This document shows positions 2,018 to 34,507 of a stretch of DNA of 37,332 nt, one piece after another. The translations under genes and the position numbers were made by a program. The first letter of the stretch is position 1; each line of letters opens with the position of its first letter. This DNA comes from a virus. The stretch lies in IMG/VR virus record IMGVR_UViG_3300037486_000738, positions 1 through 37,332 of that record; one strand, written 5' to 3'. Under the pieces are notes generated by a model. It ran no database searches. It was given only the letters and a program-made list of their open reading frames with translations, and was not told the origin of the DNA.

Positions 2018-3574
2018 ATGTGGAGCAATTTGACATCAGTTTCAAAATTTCTCATCATTCTACTTATAATGGGTGGAATCGGAGCAGGTCTTTACTTTAC
2101 TGGCGTATTTAAGCCAAATGAAAAAAAGACTAAATCAAAAACAGAATCTTCTTCACCCAAAAAGGGTGGCATTGGATCATTATTTAATGATAATGATCAT
2201 CTTACAGTTATTGTAAATACATGGGGTGGTTTTGCACCACTTGCATATCTTAATGGTGGATCTCTTGAACCAAATCCAGAATCGCGTATTACAAAGGAAT
2301 ATGGGATAGATCTTGAAATTAAAATATGTGATATTTTCGATGACTCTCGTAATACATTTAAATCGGGTAATGGCGATATAGTTTATGCAACAATTGATGC
2401 TCTTCCTGTAGAAATGGGTTCTGGTAGTACAATGACTCAATATAATGCGCAAACATTTCTTCAAGTTGACTGGAGTAGAGGTGGAGATCTTATAGTTGTA
2501 ACAAAGGGTATAAATACAGTTGCAAATCTTAAAGGAAAAACTGTTGCTGTTGCTGAAGGAACTGCATCTAATACATTCCTTATTAAAACACTTGAATCTA
2601 ATGGAATGACTATGAATGATGTAGTGCTAAAAAAGGTTACTGATGGTATTGAAGCAGCAAAACTTTTTAAAGCTGGAACTGTTGATGCTGCAGTTGTATG
2701 GACTCCTGATGACGGAGATTGTCTTGCAGCTATTCCAGGTTCTAAAGTATTAGTAAGTACTAAATCTGCACAATATATCATAGCTGACGGCCTTTTAGCA
2801 TCTAAAGAATTTATTGAAGAAAATCAAGAATTACTCATTAAATTTTCTACTGCTTGGCTTACTATTAATGGAGAAATAAATAATTCAGAAAGTGCTAAAC
2901 GTGAAGCTGCGTTAGCTTTCGCAAAAGCATTCAACGTTGATGAAGGATTTGCTCTTAACGGAATAGATAAAGTAAGATTAACAACACTTGGAGATAATAA
3001 GAACTTTTTTGGACTTAATTCTCAATATGTAGGAGTAACTGGAGAGCAACTTTATTCTAAAATGTCTATTATTTATTCAGATCTACGTTTAACATCAAGT
3101 CCTGTAGCTTGGAGAAGTGTTTCAAATACATCTATTGTTGAATCACTTACGCTTACTGGATATGCACAAGATGCAGAAGCTGCAGTTAAATTTACGCCAG
3201 CAACGCCTGAAATAAAAACAAAAGAAGCTGTATCAAGCAAGAGAGTATCTATTAATTTTGCTACAGGCGCATATATACTTACAGATGAAACTAAATCAAT
3301 AATTGATCGAGAATTTGCGGGATTAGCTAAAGACTTTGCAGGATTTAGAGTTAGAGTTGAGGGAAATACAGACGCAATTGGCAATGCTCAGATGAATTTA
3401 TCACTATCATTTAAAAGAGCTCAGGCTGTTGTAGATTATCTGATTAAAGAATATCAATTTGACCCTAATAGATTTATTGTACAGGGTAATGGAAGTAAAC
3501 AGGCTATAAATGACGGAGTTCTTACTGCCAATGAAAATTACAGAAGGACTGATTTCCAGTTTGTTGAAGAATAG
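2018..3574 (+). CDS. ABC solute-binding protein fused to an OmpA-like domain
   Basis: 518 residues in three parts. An N-terminal membrane anchor spans about 11-30. A solute-binding domain of the NMT1/SsuA/TauA (nitrate/sulfonate/bicarbonate) type spans about 60-345, with VANLKGKTVAVAEGT near 170 and a DAAVVWTPDD core near 225. A C-terminal OmpA-like peptidoglycan-binding domain spans about 405-518 (INFATGAYIL, EGNTDAIGNAQMN, LSLSFKRAQAVVDYL, NYRRTDFQF). It would be a binding protein tethered in the inner membrane and held to the cell wall, feeding the permease and ATPase downstream. It has its own promoter and is followed by a strong terminator. The substrate cannot be read from sequence. Such a fusion in a phage is unusual to my knowledge. 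Confidence 0.88.
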   Translation: MWSNLTSVSKFLIILLIMGGIGAGLYFTGVFKPNEKKTKSKTESSSPKKGGIGSLFNDNDHLTVIVNTWGGFAPLAYLNGGSLEPNPESRITKEYGIDLEIKICDIFDDSRNTFKSGNGDIVYATIDALPVEMGSGSTMTQYNAQTFLQVDWSRGGDLIVVTKGINTVANLKGKTVAVAEGTASNTFLIKTLESNGMTMNDVVLKKVTDGIEAAKLFKAGTVDAAVVWTPDDGDCLAAIPGSKVLVSTKSAQYIIADGLLASKEFIEENQELLIKFSTAWLTINGEINNSESAKREAALAFAKAFNVDEGFALNGIDKVRLTTLGDNKNFFGLNSQYVGVTGEQLYSKMSIIYSDLRLTSSPVAWRSVSNTSIVESLTLTGYAQDAEAAVKFTPATPEIKTKEAVSSKRVSINFATGAYILTDETKSIIDREFAGLAKDFAGFRVRVEGNTDAIGNAQMNLSLSFKRAQAVVDYLIKEYQFDPNRFIVQGNGSKQAINDGVLTANENYRRTDFQFVEE

Positions 3575-3587
3575 TTAATGTCTTTGT

Positions 3588-3621
3588 AAAAAGGGAAGGA
3601 GACGATTTCCTTCCCTTTTTT
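3588..3621 (+). terminator. Intrinsic terminator after the SBP-OmpA gene
   Basis: A perfect 13-bp stem (3588-3600 with 3608-3620) encloses a 7-nt loop GACGATT. The 3' arm runs into a T tract. It lies 13 nt after the stop codon at 3574, so it separates the binding protein from the downstream genes or allows it to be made in excess. Confidence 0.9.
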
Positions 3622-3634
3622 AATAAAATATAAA

Positions 3635-3925
3635 ATGAATAAAATACTCTTTATTATATGTTTTATAAGCTTATTTGCTTGTAATTCTAAAAAAGACTGC
3701 ATTAAATCAGAAAAAAATTCTGAAATAGAAATTTGCAATCATTATAATTTAGGCGATATTGTTTATATCAAACCAGATTCAACCAAAGCTGTAATAATTT
3801 TAATTGAATATAATCCATTTAAAGAAAGATATCAATATGTTGCTCGTTATTCAGATAAATGCGGAATACTTCATCAAACGTCTTATCGAGCAGAGTTTAC
3901 TTTAACGCATGAAAGTTTTTATTAA
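3635..3925 (+). CDS. Small lipoprotein
   Basis: 96 residues with a short type II signal peptide ending in a lipobox, LFAC at residues 13-16. A soluble domain with two further cysteines follows. It should be an outer- or inner-membrane lipoprotein. It starts just after the terminator at 3588-3621. No family is recognised. It is one of seven predicted lipoproteins in the window. Confidence 0.65.
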   Translation: MNKILFIICFISLFACNSKKDCIKSEKNSEIEICNHYNLGDIVYIKPDSTKAVIILIEYNPFKERYQYVARYSDKCGILHQTSYRAEFTLTHESFY

Positions 3926-3936
3926 AATTAAATAAA

Positions 3937-4140
3937 ATGAAAATAGAAACAGATAATGTATTTGTTAAATTTGAAGCAGAAACTAATTTCGATATTTTTT
4001 GTTTAGGACAAATACATATGAGCATAAAAAAAGAAGGATTAGATGTACATAGTCTTATAGCTCCGGAAAATTGCAGTGCAAGTTTATCTATACAAAAAGA
4101 ACAATTTATTTCTTATGTAATTAAAACTATGATAAAATGA
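3937..4140 (+). CDS. Small hypothetical protein
   Basis: 67 residues, soluble, with mixed strand/helix character and no recognisable motif. Its stop overlaps the start of the next membrane peptide as ATGA, which supports it as a real, coupled gene. Function unknown. Confidence 0.5.
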   Translation: MKIETDNVFVKFEAETNFDIFCLGQIHMSIKKEGLDVHSLIAPENCSASLSIQKEQFISYVIKTMIK

Positions 4141-4295
4141 AAAAATTTCTATTAATTTTAGTATTATGTTTAATACCTGTTGCAGGATATTATGCATTTT
4201 CTCTAGGATGGATACTTGTAAGAACTTTTATTGGATCAATAGCAGTTATACTTTTTATTTTAGGAATAGTTATAGGAAGAATTTCTAAACAGTGA
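4137..4295 (+). CDS. Small membrane peptide, 52 aa
   Basis: The start overlaps the previous stop as ATGA at 4137-4140. The 52-residue product is nearly all hydrophobic, with two membrane segments (about 4-20 and 28-47) and ends in GRISKQ. It precedes the permease gene by 12 nt, so it could be an accessory membrane subunit of the importer. That role is inferred from position only. Confidence 0.55.
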   Translation: MKKFLLILVLCLIPVAGYYAFSLGWILVRTFIGSIAVILFILGIVIGRISKQ

Positions 4296-4307
4296 AAATA
4301 ATCATAA

Positions 4308-5165
4308 ATGAAAATAAATTCTAATTTATTTAAAATGGGAGCCGAACTTACTCCTAAAACAAGTACTTTGGTAACTATATTTGGAGCCATAGGAATAGTG
4401 TTCTTATGGTTTCTAATAACTACTTATGGTGGAGTATCTAATACTATATTTCCTAAGCCGCAAGATGTCGTAGCGTCCTTTGGAGAATTGCAACGAAATT
4501 ATGGACTAGGACATAATGTATGGTATTCAGTAAAATTAAATCTCTTAGGATATTTTGAAGCTCTTGCAATTTCTATTCCGTTGGGATTCGTTATAGGATT
4601 ATTTCCAATAGCTCGTGGACTTTTTAGCAGATGGGTAGATGCAATAAGATTTATACCTTTAACTGCTGTAACAGGGCTTTTTATAGGTTGGTTTGGAATT
4701 GAATTGGGAATGAAAGTTCATTTCTTAGCATTTGGTATTTTAATATACATTCTTCCAATTATGGTTCAGCGAGTAGATCAAATTGAAAAAATACATTTAC
4801 AAACAGCTTGGACTATTGGAGCAAATAATTGGCAAACATTTAAACATGTATATTTTCCTTCTGTTGTATCTAAGATTTCTGATGATGCACGAGTTATGGT
4901 TGCAATATCATGGACATATATTATAGTTGCTGAATTGATTAACAAAGAGGGCGGCGTTGGCGCACTTATTTTTACAGCAACAAAACAAAGTAGAGTAGAT
5001 ATGGTTTTCGCAATATTATTAATTATAATATTTATAGGATATCTTCAAGATATGCTTTTTAAATATGCAGATTATCTAATGTTTCCATATAAGTATGAGA
5101 AAAGTCAAATTAAGAAAAGAGGATTAAATTTTTCTAAATATTTTATTAAACAAAACGCAGCATGA
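4308..5165 (+). CDS. ABC transporter permease (SsuC/TauC/NrtB type)
   Basis: 285 residues, the usual length for this family, with about six membrane segments. The family EAA-type cytoplasmic loop, which contacts the ATPase, appears as QTAWTIGANNWQTFKHVYFP around residues 164-183. FPKPQDVV near 46-53 is the FPsP-type motif common near the N-terminus of nitrate/sulfonate/taurine permeases. It probably forms the channel for the binding protein at 2018 and the ATPase at 6190. The stop overlaps the next small ORF as ATGA. Confidence 0.9.
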   Translation: MKINSNLFKMGAELTPKTSTLVTIFGAIGIVFLWFLITTYGGVSNTIFPKPQDVVASFGELQRNYGLGHNVWYSVKLNLLGYFEALAISIPLGFVIGLFPIARGLFSRWVDAIRFIPLTAVTGLFIGWFGIELGMKVHFLAFGILIYILPIMVQRVDQIEKIHLQTAWTIGANNWQTFKHVYFPSVVSKISDDARVMVAISWTYIIVAELINKEGGVGALIFTATKQSRVDMVFAILLIIIFIGYLQDMLFKYADYLMFPYKYEKSQIKKRGLNFSKYFIKQNAA

Positions 5166-5302
5166 AAAAAATAATTAAGAAATTAAAACAATTTAATCTC
5201 ACAATGGCGTTATTATTTGGTGGATGGGACTTACCTGCTGAAAGACGTACTAAAAGAGATGAATATCTACGTAATGAACTTTACAAATTAAACGAAAAAT
5301 AA
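5162..5302 (+). CDS. Small hypothetical protein, 46 aa
   Basis: The start overlaps the permease stop as ATGA. The product is 46 residues with a basic N-terminus, a short hydrophobic patch (MALLFGG) and a charged C-terminus. It is too short for a confident family call. Tight coupling on both sides supports translation. Confidence 0.4.
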   Translation: MKKIIKKLKQFNLTMALLFGGWDLPAERRTKRDEYLRNELYKLNEK

Positions 5303-5303
5303 C

Positions 5304-5546
5304 ATGAAAAAACTTATATTTGTATTATTAGTAGTTATTCTGTCAAGTTGTACTACAATGGATTCATATAAAGTAAAGGATGTTGTAAAAAAACAGTTTC
5401 CTAATGCACAATTTATCTATTGTCCGCCGGGAGATTTTCACACATTCATAGTAATGAGCAGGGATAGTTCTCTATATTATGTTAGCAGTGATGCACTTAA
5501 TATTAAAAAAGTTAATATAGATTTGATATACAGATTTGAAAAATGA
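5304..5546 (+). CDS. Small lipoprotein
   Basis: 80 residues. A classic signal peptide ends in the lipobox LSSC at residues 13-16, followed by TTMDSY. The rest is a compact soluble domain of unknown type. The stop overlaps the next gene as ATGA. Its place between permease and ATPase genes suggests it is made together with the importer. Confidence 0.6.
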   Translation: MKKLIFVLLVVILSSCTTMDSYKVKDVVKKQFPNAQFIYCPPGDFHTFIVMSRDSSLYYVSSDALNIKKVNIDLIYRFEK

Positions 5547-5893
5547 AAACTGAGGTTTGGGTAAGTTTTAATTATGGCGGGTGGTCTTTAATTTTTTTAA
5601 AAGAATTTGATTTGCCATTTACACCATTTTATGGAATGTCATTACTTGATGAATTGGACTATTCTGAAAATGATATTAGATTTGTCACTAACGATTATTG
5701 CGAAACAATTATTACATATAATGCTAAACATAAGAAATTCGTAGTCGATGTACACAATCGTTGGAAATGGGCTGTAACAGATGAAACAATAGATGATACT
5801 CTTAAACAATTTTTAAATACAAATTGGGAAAGAAAAGATAGAACAGATATAAGTGAATTAAAAGAATTAATGAATAGAAATAAAGATAAATAA
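5543..5893 (+). CDS. Hypothetical protein, 116 aa
   Basis: Soluble, with aromatic-rich N-terminal strands and a charged helical C-terminus. The start overlaps the previous lipoprotein stop as ATGA. No family recognised. Confidence 0.5.
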   Translation: MKTEVWVSFNYGGWSLIFLKEFDLPFTPFYGMSLLDELDYSENDIRFVTNDYCETIITYNAKHKKFVVDVHNRWKWAVTDETIDDTLKQFLNTNWERKDRTDISELKELMNRNKDK

Positions 5894-5929
5894 TAAAGCT
5901 TTAACGCAAATAAAGTAATAACACAAAAA

Positions 5930-6193
5930 ATGAAAAAAATTACAGGAAAAGAATTTTTAAAATCAAAGGGGTGGGATGATAAAAATCCTATACTTGGCGG
6001 AGCATTATTTAATGGCATCGCAGAATTACTTGAAGAATATGCACGTCTTCAGCCATTTGATCCAAATATTGAAAGATTTCCAAATAATAAAGAAATTCAT
6101 GAATTTGCAGATCTATATCAAGGTGGAGAAATATATGTTTATGCAGGTATAGAACTTGTAAGAGAATGGATGAAAAAACATGGAATACTATGA
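5930..6193 (+). CDS. Hypothetical protein, 87 aa
   Basis: A mostly helical soluble protein with no membrane segment and no motif I recognise. The TGA stop at 6191-6193 overlaps the preferred ATG of the ATPase gene at 6190, so the two are coupled. The 37-nt leader is AT-rich and ends ACACAAAAAATG, the usual start context here. Confidence 0.5.
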   Translation: MKKITGKEFLKSKGWDDKNPILGGALFNGIAELLEEYARLQPFDPNIERFPNNKEIHEFADLYQGGEIYVYAGIELVREWMKKHGIL

Positions 6194-7122
6194 GTAAATA
6201 TTTTCAACCTAAAGACCAAGCAGTAGTAGAACCCACTGCACCTTCTGAAAAGAAGTCAGGGTATTTTGACATAATATCAAATGTAATTAAAGAAGTTATA
6301 CCTCATCCCGGTGTAATTAATCCGTTTTCTGATAATGATACTATAGATGTTATTAGTCTTCGTAACATAAAGCAAGTTTATAAAACTCATAAATCTGAAA
6401 ATGTTCTTTTTGAAAATTTTAATTTTAATATTCCCGATATTAAAAGTGAAGGACAATTCATAGCTCTATTAGGAAAGAGTGGCTGCGGCAAAACTACGAT
6501 ATTGAGATACATTGCAGGATTACAAACTCCAACAGAAGGAGAAGTATATATTTATGGAAAACTAAAGACAGAAGATGATCGTATTCCGATGATCTTTCAA
6601 CAATATTCATCATTTCCTTGGATGAGTGTAATTGAAAATGTAGCACTTCCTCTTATCGTAAAAAAAGTAAACAAAACTGAAGCTTTTGATAAAGCAGAAG
6701 AAATGCTGAAAGTCGTGGGACTTGTAGGCCATGAAGATAAGTGGGCTAAATATCCTTTATTATCTGGTGGACAACTTCAACGAGTGGCCATAGCAAGAAG
6801 CTTGATAGCTAATCCAAAGATACTTTTATTAGATGAGCCTTTTTCGGGATTAGACATTAAAAATAAAGCTGAACTGCAAAATGTGTTATTATCATTGTTT
6901 TATAATCCTACAGTAGACGTTACATTTATTCTTGTAACTCATGATATTAGAGAAGCAGTATATTTGTCAAATAGACTTTATATTATGAAGACTAATCCTG
7001 CTGAAATTTATAAAGAATATAAAATAGATTTAGGACATACTAGAACTCAGGCAACTAAATTTACTTCTGATTATACTGAATATGTAAAACAAGTTGATAA
7101 TGATTTCAATTCACTATTATGA
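6190..7122 (+). CDS. ABC transporter ATPase (SsuB/TauB/NrtD type)
   Basis: 310 residues from the preferred start. It has a complete nucleotide-binding site: Walker A GKSGCGKTT (95-103), Q-loop FQQYSSFPW (about 136-144), signature LSGGQLQRVAIAR (191-203), Walker B ILLLDEP (211-217) and H-loop VTHD (H251). An N-terminal extension of about 55 residues precedes the ABC domain. I chose the ATG at 6190 over 6166 because it overlaps the upstream stop as ATGA, the pattern used across this block. With the permease (4308) and binding protein (2018) it makes a complete importer. All catalytic residues are present, so it should be active. Confidence 0.93.
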   Translation: MSKYFQPKDQAVVEPTAPSEKKSGYFDIISNVIKEVIPHPGVINPFSDNDTIDVISLRNIKQVYKTHKSENVLFENFNFNIPDIKSEGQFIALLGKSGCGKTTILRYIAGLQTPTEGEVYIYGKLKTEDDRIPMIFQQYSSFPWMSVIENVALPLIVKKVNKTEAFDKAEEMLKVVGLVGHEDKWAKYPLLSGGQLQRVAIARSLIANPKILLLDEPFSGLDIKNKAELQNVLLSLFYNPTVDVTFILVTHDIREAVYLSNRLYIMKTNPAEIYKEYKIDLGHTRTQATKFTSDYTEYVKQVDNDFNSLL

Positions 7123-8468: not shown

Positions 8469-8636
8469 ATGAAAGTTCTATTAAAAAGAGTATTTATATT
8501 ATTAATATTTTCAGGAATATTGTTTTATATATATAAAATTATAAGTTTTGAAGCAATGATAGTATTTGGATTTGGAAATGTAATAGCAATATTAATATAT
8601 ATAGAAACAAAGCTTGAAGAATATAATAAAAAATGA
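8469..8636 (+). CDS. Small membrane peptide, 55 aa
   Basis: 55 residues with two hydrophobic segments (about 7-24 and 30-44) and a charged C-terminus (ETKLEEYNKK). It has its own promoter with a TATATTTA box at 8445. The TGA stop (8634-8636) overlaps the next ATG at 8633. Function unknown. Confidence 0.5.
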   Translation: MKVLLKRVFILLIFSGILFYIYKIISFEAMIVFGFGNVIAILIYIETKLEEYNKK

Positions 8637-8926
8637 ATACATACGTTAAGACATTAGTTTCTTGCGATCATTATCGCAAAAAGCCTAACTGGTTAAAAAG
8701 ATTGCAAATTTGGGTTTGGCGAGGGAAACTAATTTTTAATAAAGAAAAGGATTGTTGGGAAGAAAAATATAAAGTTAGGGGATTTATTGAAAAGGGCTGG
8801 TTTTATCCAGATTTTTTACAATCGATTAATTATAAAATATTTTGGCCTTATGGACAAACAAATTTGAGTCCCGAAGAGTATAAACAGTTACGCATTGATC
8901 AAATATTACAAAAAATATTACAATAA
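8633..8926 (+). CDS. Hypothetical protein, 97 aa
   Basis: Tryptophan-rich, basic soluble protein, coupled to the preceding membrane peptide by an ATGA overlap. No motif recognised. It is the last clear gene before the first tRNA array. Confidence 0.45.
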   Translation: MNTYVKTLVSCDHYRKKPNWLKRLQIWVWRGKLIFNKEKDCWEEKYKVRGFIEKGWFYPDFLQSINYKIFWPYGQTNLSPEEYKQLRIDQILQKILQ

Positions 8927-9465: not shown

Positions 9466-9594
9466 GGCGAGAAAGTTTAGTAAAATAATACTCTTGTTAT
9501 CTTTCTCATTTAGGTGTAGTAATTATAAGAGTTACATCGGTAAAACGTCAATATAACAAATTGAAAATTGTTGGTTCAACTCCAGCTCTCGCCA
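9466..9594 (+). tRNA. Irregular tRNA-like gene with long insertion
   Basis: Acceptor GGCGAGA/TCTCGCC is perfect and the T-arm is GTTGG-TTCAACT-CCAGC, but the span is 129 nt. About 55 extra nt sit between the 5' acceptor strand and the D-arm-like part, including hairpin GAGAAAG/CTTTCTC and one copy of the GTAGT...GTTAC element (9515-9536). A candidate anticodon hairpin TCAAT-ATAACAA-ATTGA (anticodon AAC) lies at 9549-9565. The isotype is uncertain. Confidence 0.5.
9515..9536 (+). repeat. GTAGT-N-GTTAC hairpin element, copy 1
   Basis: TGTAGT pairs with GTTACA (T-A closing pair) around a 10-nt loop and is followed by TCG. It is one of four copies in the first tRNA array (others at 9790, 10492 and 11015), each inside or next to an irregular tRNA. 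Confidence 0.55.
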
Positions 9595-9811: not shown

Positions 9812-9876
9812 TCGAGTGAAATGGTTTCACATTTGTATGCTAAACAAAAGATGCGGTTCAAATCCGCCTGTTACCT
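9790..9876 (+). tRNA. Irregular tRNA-Ser(GCU)-like gene
   Basis: Contains D-arm GTGAAATGGTTTCAC, a perfect anticodon arm TTTGT-ATGCTAA-ACAAA (GCU) and T-loop TTCAAAT. The acceptor is weak: AGTAGTG against TGTTACC with an A1-C72 mismatch and three G-U pairs. The acceptor strand is also part of the second GTAGT...GTTAC hairpin (9790-9811), so about 15 extra nt precede the D-arm. No long variable arm, unlike normal tRNA-Ser. Confidence 0.45.
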
Positions 9877-11092: not shown

Positions 11093-11839
11093 ATGAAAGC
11101 TTGTGAAAATTGTGGAAAAGAACATACTGGAACTTATGGTTCTGGAAGATTTTGTTCAAGTAAATGTGCAAGGGGCTTTAGCACCAAAGCAAAAAGAAAG
11201 GAAATAAATGAAAGATTAAAAAAACCAAAAATTAAAAAACGGTGTTTAGAATGTGATATTGAATTTAATGTATTCAGTACAAAACGATTACAAAAATTTT
11301 GTTCATGTAAATGTTCAGTTGTATACAATAATAGGCTAAATCGAAAACAACGTTCAGATAAAATGAAAAAATTTATAAATAGCAGTGTAGAAATAAAACA
11401 AAAATATAAAGAAAATTTAGAAAAAGGAAGAAAATTACGAAAATATAATTCTTTATCTGACGAACATAAACGAAAAATATCTTTAAATAATAAAGGAGGG
11501 CGCTGTCTTTGGTATGAAATTGAAAAAAATAATGGCAATAAAGTAAAAATTCAAGGTTCATACGAATTAAGATTTGCAAAAATATTAAATATTATCGATG
11601 AAAATTGGATAAAGCCTTCTATATGGAATAGAGAACATCAATTTCAATGGTTTGACAAAAATAAAAAATCACATTGGTATACTCCTGATTTTTGGAGTCC
11701 AAAATTACAAAAATACTTTGAAATTAAGGGTTTTTGGAAAAAAGATGATAAAGAAAAAGGAATTTTTGTAAGTTCTTTGAAAAATGTTGAAATAGTTTAT
11801 AAAAAAGATTTAGAGAAATATGAAGCCGGAGTAGTGTAA
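11093..11839 (+). CDS. Homing endonuclease, PD-(D/E)XK-like, with N-terminal zinc fingers
   Basis: 248 residues. Two Cys-rich modules at the N-terminus (CENCG...CSSKC, and CLECD...CSCKC) look like zinc ribbons for DNA contact. A basic linker follows (about 85-135). The C-terminal catalytic-looking domain has GSYELRFAKIL, then YTPDFW near 200 and EIKGFWKKDDKEK near 213-225; D and E-x-K positions fit a PD-(D/E)XK fold. It is free-standing in the tRNA array, typical of mobile phage endonucleases. It is the same type as the gene at 22462. Confidence 0.7.
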   Translation: MKACENCGKEHTGTYGSGRFCSSKCARGFSTKAKRKEINERLKKPKIKKRCLECDIEFNVFSTKRLQKFCSCKCSVVYNNRLNRKQRSDKMKKFINSSVEIKQKYKENLEKGRKLRKYNSLSDEHKRKISLNNKGGRCLWYEIEKNNGNKVKIQGSYELRFAKILNIIDENWIKPSIWNREHQFQWFDKNKKSHWYTPDFWSPKLQKYFEIKGFWKKDDKEKGIFVSSLKNVEIVYKKDLEKYEAGVV

Positions 11840-14075: not shown

Positions 14076-14846
14076 ATGAAAAGAAATAAAATTAAGTGTG
14101 AAAAGTGTGATAGGGAAATTTCTAAAAGTAATTATCCCAGACACTTAAAAATATGTGATGGAATATCAAAATGTGGATTTAAGAAATTAGAAAAATGCCC
14201 TCATTGCAAAAAAGATCTTAAAAATATTAAAGATACTGCAAATCATGTAAGATGGTGTATTAAGAATTCTAAACGAAAAGAATATTTAGAAAATTTAAAA
14301 AATATACGTGAAAAGGGCGTGATTAACGGAAAATGTGGCGGATGGAATAAAGGTTTAACAAAAGAAACGGACGAAAGAGTTAAAAAATTTAGTGAAACTA
14401 TAAGTAAAAATACAAAGGGAGATAAAAGTTACTGGTTTAATAAACATCAATCTAAAAAATCTAAAGATCTAATATCCGATGCTTTAAAGCTTTCTCATAA
14501 AAATGGAAAACACCCTGGATGGAAACATATTAATACTGATGAAAATAGAAGAAGCTATCCCGAAAAATGGTTTATTGAAAATATAATAAAACAAAATAAT
14601 TTAGATAAAAAATATACGATAAAAGAAAAAATGCCCTTCGGAAAATATTTCCTTGATTTTGCATTTCTGGAATTAAAATTAGATGTTGAAATTGATGGGC
14701 AACAACATAATAGGACAATTGAAGCCACAGAGCACGATAGAATTCGAGATGAATTTTTAAAACAAAAAGATTGGATAGTTTTTAGAATTGAATGGATTAG
14801 CATGAAACAAGATATAACAAAATTTTTAGAATTTATTAAATTATGA
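14076..14846 (+). CDS. Homing endonuclease, EDxHD/Vsr-like, with zinc fingers
   Basis: 256 residues. Two C-x2-C...H-x-C modules at the N-terminus (CEKCD...HLKIC; CPHCKKD...HVRWC) look like zinc fingers. A helical linker follows with SKKSKDLISDALK-type NUMOD-like residues. The C-terminal domain (about 160-256) has LDFAF, a VEIDGQQH motif and DRIRDEFLKQKDWIVFRIEW. This is the Vsr/DUF559-like arrangement seen in EDxHD homing endonucleases of phages. Catalytic residues are present. It is free-standing in the tRNA array. Confidence 0.72.
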   Translation: MKRNKIKCEKCDREISKSNYPRHLKICDGISKCGFKKLEKCPHCKKDLKNIKDTANHVRWCIKNSKRKEYLENLKNIREKGVINGKCGGWNKGLTKETDERVKKFSETISKNTKGDKSYWFNKHQSKKSKDLISDALKLSHKNGKHPGWKHINTDENRRSYPEKWFIENIIKQNNLDKKYTIKEKMPFGKYFLDFAFLELKLDVEIDGQQHNRTIEATEHDRIRDEFLKQKDWIVFRIEWISMKQDITKFLEFIKL

Positions 14847-21685: not shown

Positions 21686-21940
21686 ATGAGTATTATGACA
21701 CCGGTTAAACAAGATGAATTGAAAGAAATGCTTAGAATGGGAAAAGTACATTTTGAGTATAAAAAGGCAGATGGAACTATAAGAGAAGCTCTTGGAACTC
21801 TTAATTCAGATTATATTCCAGTAGCAATGATACCTAAAGATAGTTCAACTTACAAAGAATATAATCTAAGATATTTTGATTTAGATAAAAATTCTTGGAG
21901 ATCTATCGCAAAAGAAACAACACAAATAATAGTTCTTTGA
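21686..21940 (+). CDS. WYL_2/DUF2693-like small phage protein
   Basis: 84 residues. VHFEYKKADGTIREALGTLN near 21-40 followed by LRYFDLDKNSWRSI near 62-75 is the pattern of the small Sm-like/SH3-barrel family DUF2693 (WYL_2), frequent in phages of Bacteroidetes. The role is unknown; WYL-type folds can bind ligands or nucleic acid. The stop lies 6 nt before the RNase P RNA, so they may share a transcript. Confidence 0.7.
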   Translation: MSIMTPVKQDELKEMLRMGKVHFEYKKADGTIREALGTLNSDYIPVAMIPKDSSTYKEYNLRYFDLDKNSWRSIAKETTQIIVL

Positions 21941-21946
21941 CAATAT

Positions 21947-22210
21947 AATTTATTAGTAAAGAGGGTCCATTGCACTACGGTGAGGAACTTCGCGACATCT
22001 CAGCTTAATTCAGGAGATAGTGCCAGACGAATGATTCTGGTTAAATGAAAGCTGGAAGAAATTCCAATGGGAAGCAGCTATCGTTATTACTGAAGAGGAT
22101 GCAACTTAAAAAAGCTTAAACGGTGAGCTGGTTAATGATAGCAAGGTAAAGGCCAATAGATAAATAATGGATTAAAACAGAATCGCGGGTACGCTCATAT
22201 TAATAAATTT
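21947..22210 (+). ncRNA. rnpB: Compact RNase P RNA
   Basis: About 264 nt with the bacterial RNase P core. P1 pairs 21947-21958 with 22198-22209. P2 pairs TCCATT (21966-21971) with AATGGA (22166-22171). P3 is only CAC-TACG-GTG (21973-21982). P4 pairs CGCGA (21991-21995), inside GAGGAACTTCGCGA, with TCGCG (22183-22187), inside ACAGAATCGCGGG. Other conserved strings: TGCCAG/CTGG (P8-like), GATGCAAC (22098), AAACGGTG (22118) and GGTAAAGGCCAATA (22145). It is shorter than the usual 350-400 nt, so P3 and P12-type arms are reduced. It lies directly upstream of tRNAs it could process. Confidence 0.85.
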
Positions 22211-22214
22211 AAAT

Positions 22215-22327
22215 GCGCTCGTAGTTTAAGGAAGAAGAAGAAACAGGTACCATTTCTCTTGAGAAAATTCTTTGTAGAACACTTCCATAGTTGGGAAGAA
22301 GTCTTGGTTCAAATCCAAGGGAGCGCT
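22215..22327 (+). tRNA. Irregular tRNA with insertion before anticodon arm
   Basis: Acceptor GCGCTCG/GGAGCGC (one G-G mismatch), D-arm GTTT...AAAC with GG, T-arm CTTGG-TTCAAAT-CCAAG. A 5-7-5 hairpin CTTCC-ATAGTTG-GGAAG gives nominal anticodon AGT (Thr), but about 36 nt with two small hairpins lie between D-arm and it. It starts 5 nt after the RNase P RNA. Isotype uncertain; a type II tRNA with insertion is also possible. Confidence 0.5.
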
Positions 22328-22332
22328 CTAAA

Positions 22333-22409
22333 CCTGATGTATCCCCTCTGTCTTATACACAGTAGAAAGGGTAATTGGTTACATGTGGGTTCGATTCCCT
22401 CTATCAGGA
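22333..22409 (+). tRNA. tRNA-Ile(UAU) with D-arm-like segment after the anticodon arm
   Basis: Acceptor CCTGATG/TATCAGG, T8-A9, then anticodon arm CTGT-CTTATAC-ACAG, then the D-arm-like GGGTAATTGGTTACAT (22370-22385), then T-arm GTGGG-TTCGATT-CCCTC. CCC before and GGG after the anticodon arm can pair, against CAC and GTG in tRNA-Arg at 13933. Normal length (77). Reads AUA. Confidence 0.75.
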
Positions 22410-22419
22410 CAAATGGTTA

Positions 22420-22457
22420 GTACACATTTCTTTATTAAACACATAAATATATATTAT
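22420..22457 (+). promoter_or_regulatory. Inverted repeat in front of endonuclease start
   Basis: TACACATTT (about 22420-22428) and AAATGTGTA form a 9-bp stem whose 3' arm ends a few bases before the ATG at 22462. It could sequester the start region, as hairpins do for some T4 homing endonuclease messages. Confidence 0.45.
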
Positions 22458-22461
22458 AAAT

Positions 22462-23259
22462 GTGTATATCATGAAAAGAAAAAAACTTATTTGCAAAAAG
22501 TGTAATAAATTAATTGATTCTTCTAATTTTATTAGACATTCTAATTCATGCAAAGGTATAGATAAAAAATTAAGAGTAAAAGAAGAATGGAAACAAGAAA
22601 ATGGAAAATATTTATGTATATTTTGTAAAAAAGAATACACAAAGATGGGAATTATTTCTCACATTTTAATTAAACATTTGGGGCATACAATACATAATAA
22701 TCTTAAAAAATATAATGAAGATGTAAAAAAAGGAAAAATAAAATCTAAAAATCAATATATTTTAGCTAAAGAACAGGGCAAAAAATGGATAATGCCTCCA
22801 GAAGCGATTGAAAAACAAAGGCTTAAACATATAGGAAAACATCTTAGTAAAGAACATAAAGAAATACTTTCTTTAAAACGATCAAAAGCTATAGAAGAGT
22901 TAGGAAGAGGAGGATTTAAACATATTAAATGGTATAAAATTACTAATATTCAAAATCAAGAGTTTATAGTAAGAGGAAAATGGGAATTAAAGGTAGCTAA
23001 TTTGTTAAATGCTAATAATATTGTTTGGATTAGAAAAATTTATTTAAAATATGAAGATGAAAAAGGGGTTTTAAAAACTTATACTCCCGATTTTTATTTA
23101 CTAAATTATAATAAGTACATTGAAGTTAAAGGATATTTCAGTGTTAAAGATAAACAAAAAATTGAAAAAGTTTTACAAAAAAATAAAATTAATTTAATAA
23201 TAATAGATAAAAATATTATTAATAATGAAGATGAAATACTTAAAAAAATTATAACGTAA
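22462..23259 (+). CDS. Homing endonuclease, PD-(D/E)XK-like
   Basis: 265 residues. N-terminal zinc-finger-like modules (CKKCN...HSNSC; CIFCKKEY...HILIKH), a basic middle, and a C-terminal domain with RGKWELKVANLL, YTPDFYLL and YIEVKGYFSVKDKQK. The D and E-x-K positions match a PD-(D/E)XK core, as in the gene at 11093, with which it shares the GxxELxxAxxL and YTPDF...E(I/V)KG patterns. It lies in the second tRNA array behind an inverted repeat. Confidence 0.7.
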   Translation: MYIMKRKKLICKKCNKLIDSSNFIRHSNSCKGIDKKLRVKEEWKQENGKYLCIFCKKEYTKMGIISHILIKHLGHTIHNNLKKYNEDVKKGKIKSKNQYILAKEQGKKWIMPPEAIEKQRLKHIGKHLSKEHKEILSLKRSKAIEELGRGGFKHIKWYKITNIQNQEFIVRGKWELKVANLLNANNIVWIRKIYLKYEDEKGVLKTYTPDFYLLNYNKYIEVKGYFSVKDKQKIEKVLQKNKINLIIIDKNIINNEDEILKKIIT

Positions 23260-33734: not shown

Positions 33735-33977
33735 ATGATAACATTTAAATTATTTTGTATAAATTTTATTCTTTTTGTATACGAAAATTATGTAAAAGAA
33801 GATTTTGATGTATTAACTAAATTTGGAAAAATAATAATTTATCCTGCATGGTTAGCTCTCGCAATAAGTATATGGTTAATATGTCCTATATTTATTCCAG
33901 AATATTTTTTTAAACAAAGTAAAATATATGCAGAAATACAAAAACAAATAAAAACAATAAAAATGCCAACTTTATAA
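33735..33977 (+). CDS. Small membrane protein, 80 aa
   Basis: Two hydrophobic segments (about 1-16 and 32-52) and a basic tail (EIQKQIKTIKMPTL). The stop overlaps the deformylase start as TAATG. Function unknown. Confidence 0.45.
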   Translation: MITFKLFCINFILFVYENYVKEDFDVLTKFGKIIIYPAWLALAISIWLICPIFIPEYFFKQSKIYAEIQKQIKTIKMPTL

Positions 33978-34507
33978 TGATTTATCCTATTTACACATAT
34001 GGCAACGAAATACTTCGAAAAAAGACTGATTATGTAGATATTAAAGATCCTACATTGCCTATTCTTATTTCAGATATGTTTGAAACTATGCATAACGCAG
34101 AAGGCGCAGGTCTTGCTGCGTCGCAAATAGGCATTAGTAAAAAAATAATAGTCATTGATGAAGAAATATCTAAAGGAGAAAGATTTACTGGAGTTTTTAT
34201 AAATGCTGACGTGCTTCAACTTTTTAGTTATGGGACAGTATTGGAAGAAGGCTGCCTTAGTTTTCCGGGAATAATAATTCCTGTTGTACGAGCTCTTATG
34301 GTAGAAATAGAATACTTTGATAAAGATTTAATATATCATAAAGAACAATTTAGCGGGATAAAAGCAAGAATACTTCAACACGAATTTGATCATACAGAAG
34401 GAACACTATTTATAGATAAAATAAGTTCAGAGAATAGATTAAAACTTTTTATGCAATTAGAGGATATAAAGAATAAAAGAGTAATAACTAAATATCCAAT
34501 AGCATGA
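33977..34507 (+). CDS. def: Peptide deformylase
   Basis: 176 residues, full length. All three signature motifs are present: GAGLAASQIG (43-52), EGCLS (91-95) with metal ligand C93, and QHEFDH (134-139) with ligands H135 and H139 and catalytic E136. The enzyme removes the formyl group from the N-terminal Met of new proteins. Phage copies are known in several groups. It begins in a TAATG overlap with the membrane peptide and ends in an ATGA overlap. It complements the initiator tRNA and IF-1 of this window. Confidence 0.95.
   Translation: MIYPIYTYGNEILRKKTDYVDIKDPTLPILISDMFETMHNAEGAGLAASQIGISKKIIVIDEEISKGERFTGVFINADVLQLFSYGTVLEEGCLSFPGIIIPVVRALMVEIEYFDKDLIYHKEQFSGIKARILQHEFDHTEGTLFIDKISSENRLKLFMQLEDIKNKRVITKYPIA

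Follow-up and report, generated by a model that had tools for sequence, protein, structure and literature searches.

RNase P is, to our knowledge, a near-universal RNA enzyme of cells, and the question raised by the locus described here is whether a bacterial virus also encodes one. The DNA analysed, which we call the window, is the whole 37,332-nucleotide stretch of IMG/VR record IMGVR_UViG_3300037486_000738, in which ARAGORN identifies 25 tRNAs. A sequence-only reading had proposed that a reduced, phage-encoded RNase P RNA lies beside tRNA genes, and this is borne out by the family covariation and homologues described below: positions 21947-22209 of the plus strand are an RNase P RNA gene. 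The motifs cited for the proposal are found in the window where they were said to be (GAGGAACTTCGCGA at 21982-21995, ACAGAATCGCGGG at 22177-22189 and GGTAAAGGCCAATA starting at 22145). One of them had been misassigned: GGTAAAGGCCAATA is not the GGCCAAAUAG element of E. coli but comprises the L15 GGU motif, the 3' strand of P15 and the strand that joins P15 to P2.

At gathering thresholds, Rfam finds tRNAs alone across the whole window and no match to an RNase P family; RF00010, at its gathering score of 100 bits, has no match in the window or in the huge-phage records considered below. Under relaxed thresholds over 21900-22450, RF02357 is not reported, and the best Rfam score for the window is that of RF00373 (RNaseP_arch), which aligns over its full model to 21957-22202 with 18.6 bits (E = 0.0026). 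By itself, this match is weak evidence; it can be placed far above chance because the helices are preserved through compensatory changes among the homologues in other phages, and the sub-cutoff scores of the window RNA reflect divergence. The covariance-model check that had been suggested for the proposal is thus negative at gathering thresholds, but below them there are RNase P matches in the window and stronger ones in its relatives: 32.4 bits (E = 1.4e-6) with RF00373 in LR756502.1, 46.8 bits (E = 6e-12, cutoff 100), the best RF00010 score, in L042, and 37.1 bits (E = 5e-5, cutoff 60) with RF02357 in L020. All of the scored copies stay below the Rfam RNase P gathering cutoffs, so that the phage RNAs are easily missed.

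The first of these relatives was LR756502.1, a 642 kb uncultured phage, which gave the sole blastn match overlapping the RNA in a distant search of phage records; the second, from another search, was the 595 kb LR756511.1. Motifs common to the window and these two records were made into two patterns with which IMG/VR was scanned, and the 52 stretches obtained included 14 further distinct RNase P-like RNAs and four near-identical copies from other contigs, the remainder being chance matches. When the P4 strands of the window itself, or over-specific patterns, were used to scan IMG/VR, the yield was nil or a single chance match. The family thus comprises 17 distinct phage sequences with a median identity of 63%.

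These sequences were aligned with MAFFT, which is blind to structure, and the helices named on the alignment were P2-P6, one specificity-domain stem, P15, P16 and P17. For this structure, which was itself drawn from the same 17 sequences, 92.2% of cells are paired, as against 68.0% when shuffled and 36-42% when slid; none of the 500 shuffles, and none of the slid versions, approached the observed pairing. Two-sided changes occur in 34 of the 42 pairs, with 167 cells showing such a change compared with 45 in shuffles. Each of P2-P6, P15-P17 and the specificity stem also beats all 10,000 strand permutations in a set of 14 sequences with strands chosen by eye. The P4 strands, whose conservation in homologous phages had been singled out as a check on the proposal, pair in 97.8% of cells and show two-sided changes in six of eight pairs. 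P6 is paired in 85-94% of cells, P16 in 72.5% and P17 in 82.8% on the alignment, the values for P16 and P17 being 100% and 89.6% with hand-placed strands. Homology, structure and conservation are in this way observed directly. A degenerating RNase P gene, acquired by the phage from a host and now functionless, would fit the short form and the scores below the Rfam cutoffs, and one huge-phage copy, in LR756500.1, looks degenerate, with no clear P4 bulge. Such a gene would not, however, be expected to show so many two-sided changes at this level of identity, which indicate that the structure has long been under purifying selection, and we consider this explanation very improbable.

The anatomy of the RNA (Table 1) is that of a bacterial type-A catalytic domain in which P7-P14 have been cut to one stem and P18 has been lost. 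P1, P2, P3 and P5 stand in fixed order around P4, the arrangement that defines the RNase P superfamily (P1 in the window being assigned by eye and from a duplex fold). The helices first claimed, P1 to P4, are all there, although the inventory was incomplete: P5, the P6 pseudoknot, P15, P16 and probably P17 are present too. Likewise, the supposed ‘P8-like hairpin’ exists, but is actually the sole remnant of the specificity domain. P7-P14 are otherwise absent between the strands of P5, and the relatives' RF00010 and RF00373 alignments skip the specificity-domain positions; in the RF00010 alignment of L042, those passed over are P7-P14, with CR-II and CR-III, in place of which the family has one stem only. 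In relatives, the CAC/GTG of P3 becomes CTC/GAG, and some have a longer P3. The bulged U of P4, which we take to occupy the place of U69 in E. coli, is present in all 17 family members. So too is the L15 GGU; in bacteria, this motif contacts the 3' CCA of tRNA. The strand 3' of P15 goes straight into UAGANAAAU and then P2, and P18 is therefore missing, as it is from all 17 family members. The idea that P15-P18 are all missing was considered and rejected: the RF00373 and RF00010 alignments, together with covariation, show P15-P17, with P18 alone absent.

Table 1. The RNase P RNA of the window and the two tRNA-like genes that follow it.
Feature	Position	Strand	Pairing and evidence
Whole RNase P RNA gene, P1 to P1	21947..22209	+	about 263 nt; R1 match 21963-22193
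P1, 5' strand AATTTATTA	21947..21955	+	pairs with 22201-22209 TAATAAATT; by eye and duplex fold
P2, 5' strand TCCATT	21966..21971	+	pairs with 22166-22171 AATGGA; 93.0% paired, two-sided changes in 6/6 pairs in family
P3, three-pair hairpin CAC-TACG-GTG	21973..21982	+	covariation
P4, 5' strand, bulged U at 21990	21987..21995	+	pairs with 22183-22190; bulged U in 17/17 family members
P5, 5' strand CATC	21996..21999	+	pairs with 22098-22101 GATG; 98.5% paired, two-sided changes in 4/4 pairs
P6 pseudoknot, 5' strand CAGCTT	22001..22006	+	pairs with 22125-22130 GAGCTG; family alignment
Specificity-domain remnant, one stem and long apical hairpin	22009..22094	+	22009-22013 TTCAG with 22090-22094 CTGAA
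P15, 5' strand CTT	22105..22107	+	pairs with 22149-22151 AAG; 98.0% paired in family
P16/P17 region, carries P6 3' strand	22114..22142	+	GCT 22114-22116 with AGC 22140-22142
L15 GGU motif	22145..22147	+	GGU in 17/17
Joining strand GCCAATAGATAAAT to P2, immediately 3' of P15, no P18	22152..22165	+	aligns with Bacteroidota UAGAUAAAUGA
ACAGAA (CR-V) and P4 3' strand TCGCGGGT	22177..22190	+	family alignment, window sequence
tRNA-like gene, directly 3' of P1	22215..22327	+	sequence and fold; paired acceptor ends, T-arm, CTTCC/GGAAG stem
Odd tRNA-like gene	22333..22409	+	RF00005 26.6 bits, below cutoff; D-arm region shortened

A covariance model, R1, was built from the 17 family sequences (the window sequence is one of these, which bears on its own R1 match) and applied to records that had been held out. 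It recognises RNAs in LR756503 (735 kb; 108.9 bits, E = 7e-31), LR745206 (635 kb; 104.5 bits), LR756508 (484 kb; 77.8 bits) and LR756500 (462 kb; 59.8 bits), whereas chance matches across other viral contigs totalling 352 kb reach no more than 17.8 bits. In all but one of the four held-out RNAs, P4 is perfect at fixed offsets and has its bulged U. A second record of the same 735 kb length, LR756501, has the same RNA as LR756503 (L066, LR756501.1, 823-1030, minus strand); this RNA has a short P18-like hairpin with a GAAA loop, which is absent from the others, and may represent an intermediate form. Matches of 17.7 bits in LR756504.1 and 15.3 bits in a 242 kb contig encoding the protein subunit, RnpA, are at noise level and were set aside, and R1 finds no RNA in Lak-C1, MT835475 or LR745208. 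Altogether, the RNA occurs in about twenty other bacterial viruses besides the window phage, the 735 kb giant among them.

The viral nature of these records has a bearing on a further explanation, that host contigs have been binned as viral. No terminase was detected in the window, an IMG/VR fragment of 37 kb, and ABC-transporter genes are present, as they might be in a cellular contaminant. On the other hand, the family is present in phage records of 462-735 kb, and each of the six huge-phage records carries a terminase; when 84,980 cellular genomes were scanned with a motif pattern, the four matches obtained were all due to chance. Two Bacteroidota genomes reached through such chance matches have ordinary type A RNAs (402 and 334 nt; 203 and 188 bits), and R1 has no match on one of the genomes and scores 14.9 bits on the other. 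Since R1 barely recognises these host RNAs, the phage form is distinct, and contamination is the least probable of the explanations that we consider.

Some of the phages also encode RnpA. PF00825 (RnpA) is above cutoff in five phage records, and scores 52 bits in LR756502.1, 50.9 bits in the 508 kb contig of L029 and 49 bits in LR745206.1, where the protein was found by tblastn and confirmed with PF00825; all three of these carry both the RNA and RnpA, a co-occurrence that is new here. The phage proteins are 46-50% identical to one another and share the RNR motif of bacterial RnpA (PF00825, TIGR00188), in the form RNRxKR; what sets them apart is that they are encoded by phages of 508-642 kb. 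That of LR756502 scores 52.5 with TIGR00188, passing the equivalog cutoff of 38.35, and matches the solved RnpA chains 4jg4 and 1a6f, and that of the L029 record, at 38.0, falls just below the cutoff. PF00825 was not found in the other fifteen records of the search that covered LR756502.1 and L029, nor in LR756503, LR756500, Lak-C1 or LR756508. Most RNA-bearing records are thus without a detected RnpA, and those phages would depend on that of the host. Conversely, two RnpA-bearing contigs, L082 (242 kb) and L083 (15.7 kb), have no RNase P RNA recognisable by R1 or RF02357; their RNA may be more diverged, or may lie outside the fragment. Because three viruses carry both subunits, tRNA maturation is probably carried out by these viruses themselves, and we lean towards the view that, in some huge phages, both subunits of a complete RNase P are encoded, giving host-independent maturation of phage tRNAs, with a substrate range of its own in the absence of the elbow-binding domain.

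The same observations bear on whether the RNA is a ribozyme at all. It might instead be a mimic of RNase P RNA that binds host RnpA or tRNA precursors and so inhibits or titrates the host enzyme. Loss of the specificity domain would be compatible with this, as a decoy retaining an RnpA-binding catalytic core would be expected to sequester RnpA. However, a decoy has no need of the conserved P4 bulged U, of the ACAGAA and L15 GGU, both held amid much surrounding change, or of the RnpA that three phages themselves supply, and we regard this possibility as decidedly unlikely.

Our preferred reading, to which we give a probability of roughly 85%, is that this locus supplies a phage RNase P with its catalytic RNA, and that the enzyme would use host or phage RnpA to mature phage tRNAs. 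The catalytic domain of the E. coli RNA alone cleaves substrates, with reduced efficiency, and for it P18 is dispensable, whereas a P6-type contact matters (PMC5839562); in Pyrobaculum, the RNase P RNA has next to no specificity domain (PMC4919922). By analogy with these systems, the phage RNA, which keeps the parts reported to be needed and lacks those that are dispensable, is probably active with RnpA on phage pre-tRNAs. It would bring to the enzyme P1-P5, the P6 pseudoknot, P15 with the L15 GGU, P16, and P4 with its presumed metal-site bulged U, and would most likely assemble with host RnpA, at least three huge phages having their own protein available. That the RNA is expressed, assembled and catalytic, and what substrates it prefers, we infer. 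The holoenzyme would then remove 5' leaders from the many tRNA precursors of the phage. It might also cut its own array transcript, as suggested by the position of the RNA in four records (L009, L012, L017 and L039), 11-14 nt from a tRNA and inside the array. Several other records have no tRNA within the fetched neighbourhood of the RNA. This last observation, and the fact that bacterial RNase P also cleaves RNAs other than tRNA precursors (PMC4919922), would be in keeping with an active enzyme whose main substrates are other phage transcripts; the four array-embedded copies and the L15 GGU invariant across the family speak against it, and we judge it unlikely.

Without the domain that binds the tRNA elbow, the enzyme would be expected to recognise its substrates by their leader, their 3' end and the acceptor/T-stem end, and so aberrant tRNAs could be accepted. 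Of the two tRNA-like genes downstream of the RNA, that nearer to P1 is about 40 nt too long and is not called by ARAGORN; both possibly bear introns or are unusual substrates, and any link between the phage RNase P RNA and odd tRNA shapes, as the sequence-only reading had suggested, is speculation. A connection between the form of the RNA and CCA-less tRNA genes was dropped, since the GGU loop persists even though CCA is encoded by no more than 19 of the 131 tRNA genes near these RNAs. Elsewhere in the window, 9530-9586 and 9815-9867 match the Rfam tRNA model at positions 9-63 only and are not called by ARAGORN; they are candidate tRNA-like genes with aberrant acceptor stems. On a 494 kb viral contig (L011), ARAGORN calls a tRNA-Pyl at 8568-8641, which may be a suppressor-type tRNA. 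Proteins resembling homing-type or other small endonucleases are encoded among the window tRNAs at 11093-11839, 14076-14846 and 22462-23259, the last matching phage endonuclease families. Another translation-related gene, for peptide deformylase, is at 33977-34507. The stretch 2018-7122 encodes an ABC ATPase, a permease-like protein and a fusion of a substrate-binding-like protein with an OmpA domain; together they resemble a transporter set of the nitrate/taurine type, and such a set is unusual in phages.

The suggestion that RNase P RNA is rare or unreported in phages agrees with the open-access papers searched, in whose full text no report was found; on the basis of this open-access set, any priority is provisional. 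Term searches of the huge-phage paper (PMC7162821) and of jumbo-phage papers (PMC13282480, PMC7824862) found no phage RNase P RNA in the text that such terms reach. A virus-borne RNase P, if real, would mean that the translation machinery carried by viruses extends to tRNA maturation; three of the phages have both subunits.

Among known RNase P RNAs, the phage RNA most resembles the Bacteroidota form of type A (RF00010), with which it shares P1-P5, the P6 pseudoknot, P15 with its GGU, P16, the P4 bulged U, GAGGAA and ACAGAA. The joining strand UAGAUAAAUGA is common to the phage RNAs and those of Marivirga and Flavobacteriaceae, UAGAUAAAUGAU in both of the Bacteroidota RNAs above is identical in many phage RNAs, and the cellular RNA of Marivirga, like the phage form, is without P18. 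It is reasonable to infer that the phage RNA came from Bacteroidota, and one of the proteins encoded in the window has a CHU_C type IX secretion domain, in line with this. The phage form has the P6 pseudoknot, P16/P17 and P15 with the L15 GGU that characterise type A, but it differs in having one stem for P7-P14 with CR-II and CR-III, in the absence of P18 (in the 17), in its length (170-274 nt from P2 to P4, compared with 334-402 nt for whole host RNAs) and in scoring below the gathering score of 100 bits. It belongs to the RNase P RNA superfamily (Rfam clan CL00002), but to neither RF00010 nor RF02357 as defined. The diverged RNAs of CPR bacteria, like the phage form, have missing helices and scores below model thresholds, being without P12-P14/P18 or most of P15 (PMC8172020), whereas the phage RNA is viral and lacks nearly the whole specificity domain. 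The archaeal type T (= type P) RNA of Pyrobaculum (RF02357) has also kept its catalytic domain and almost lost its specificity domain. The phage RNA, whose score stays under the cutoff of 60 for RF02357, differs in its bacterial-type features and in its likely partner, RnpA in place of archaeal proteins, and the two reductions were probably independent. As a bacterial-type RNA nearly devoid of the specificity domain, and apparently separate from type T, the phage form would offer a small natural ribozyme with which the purpose of that domain can be tested.
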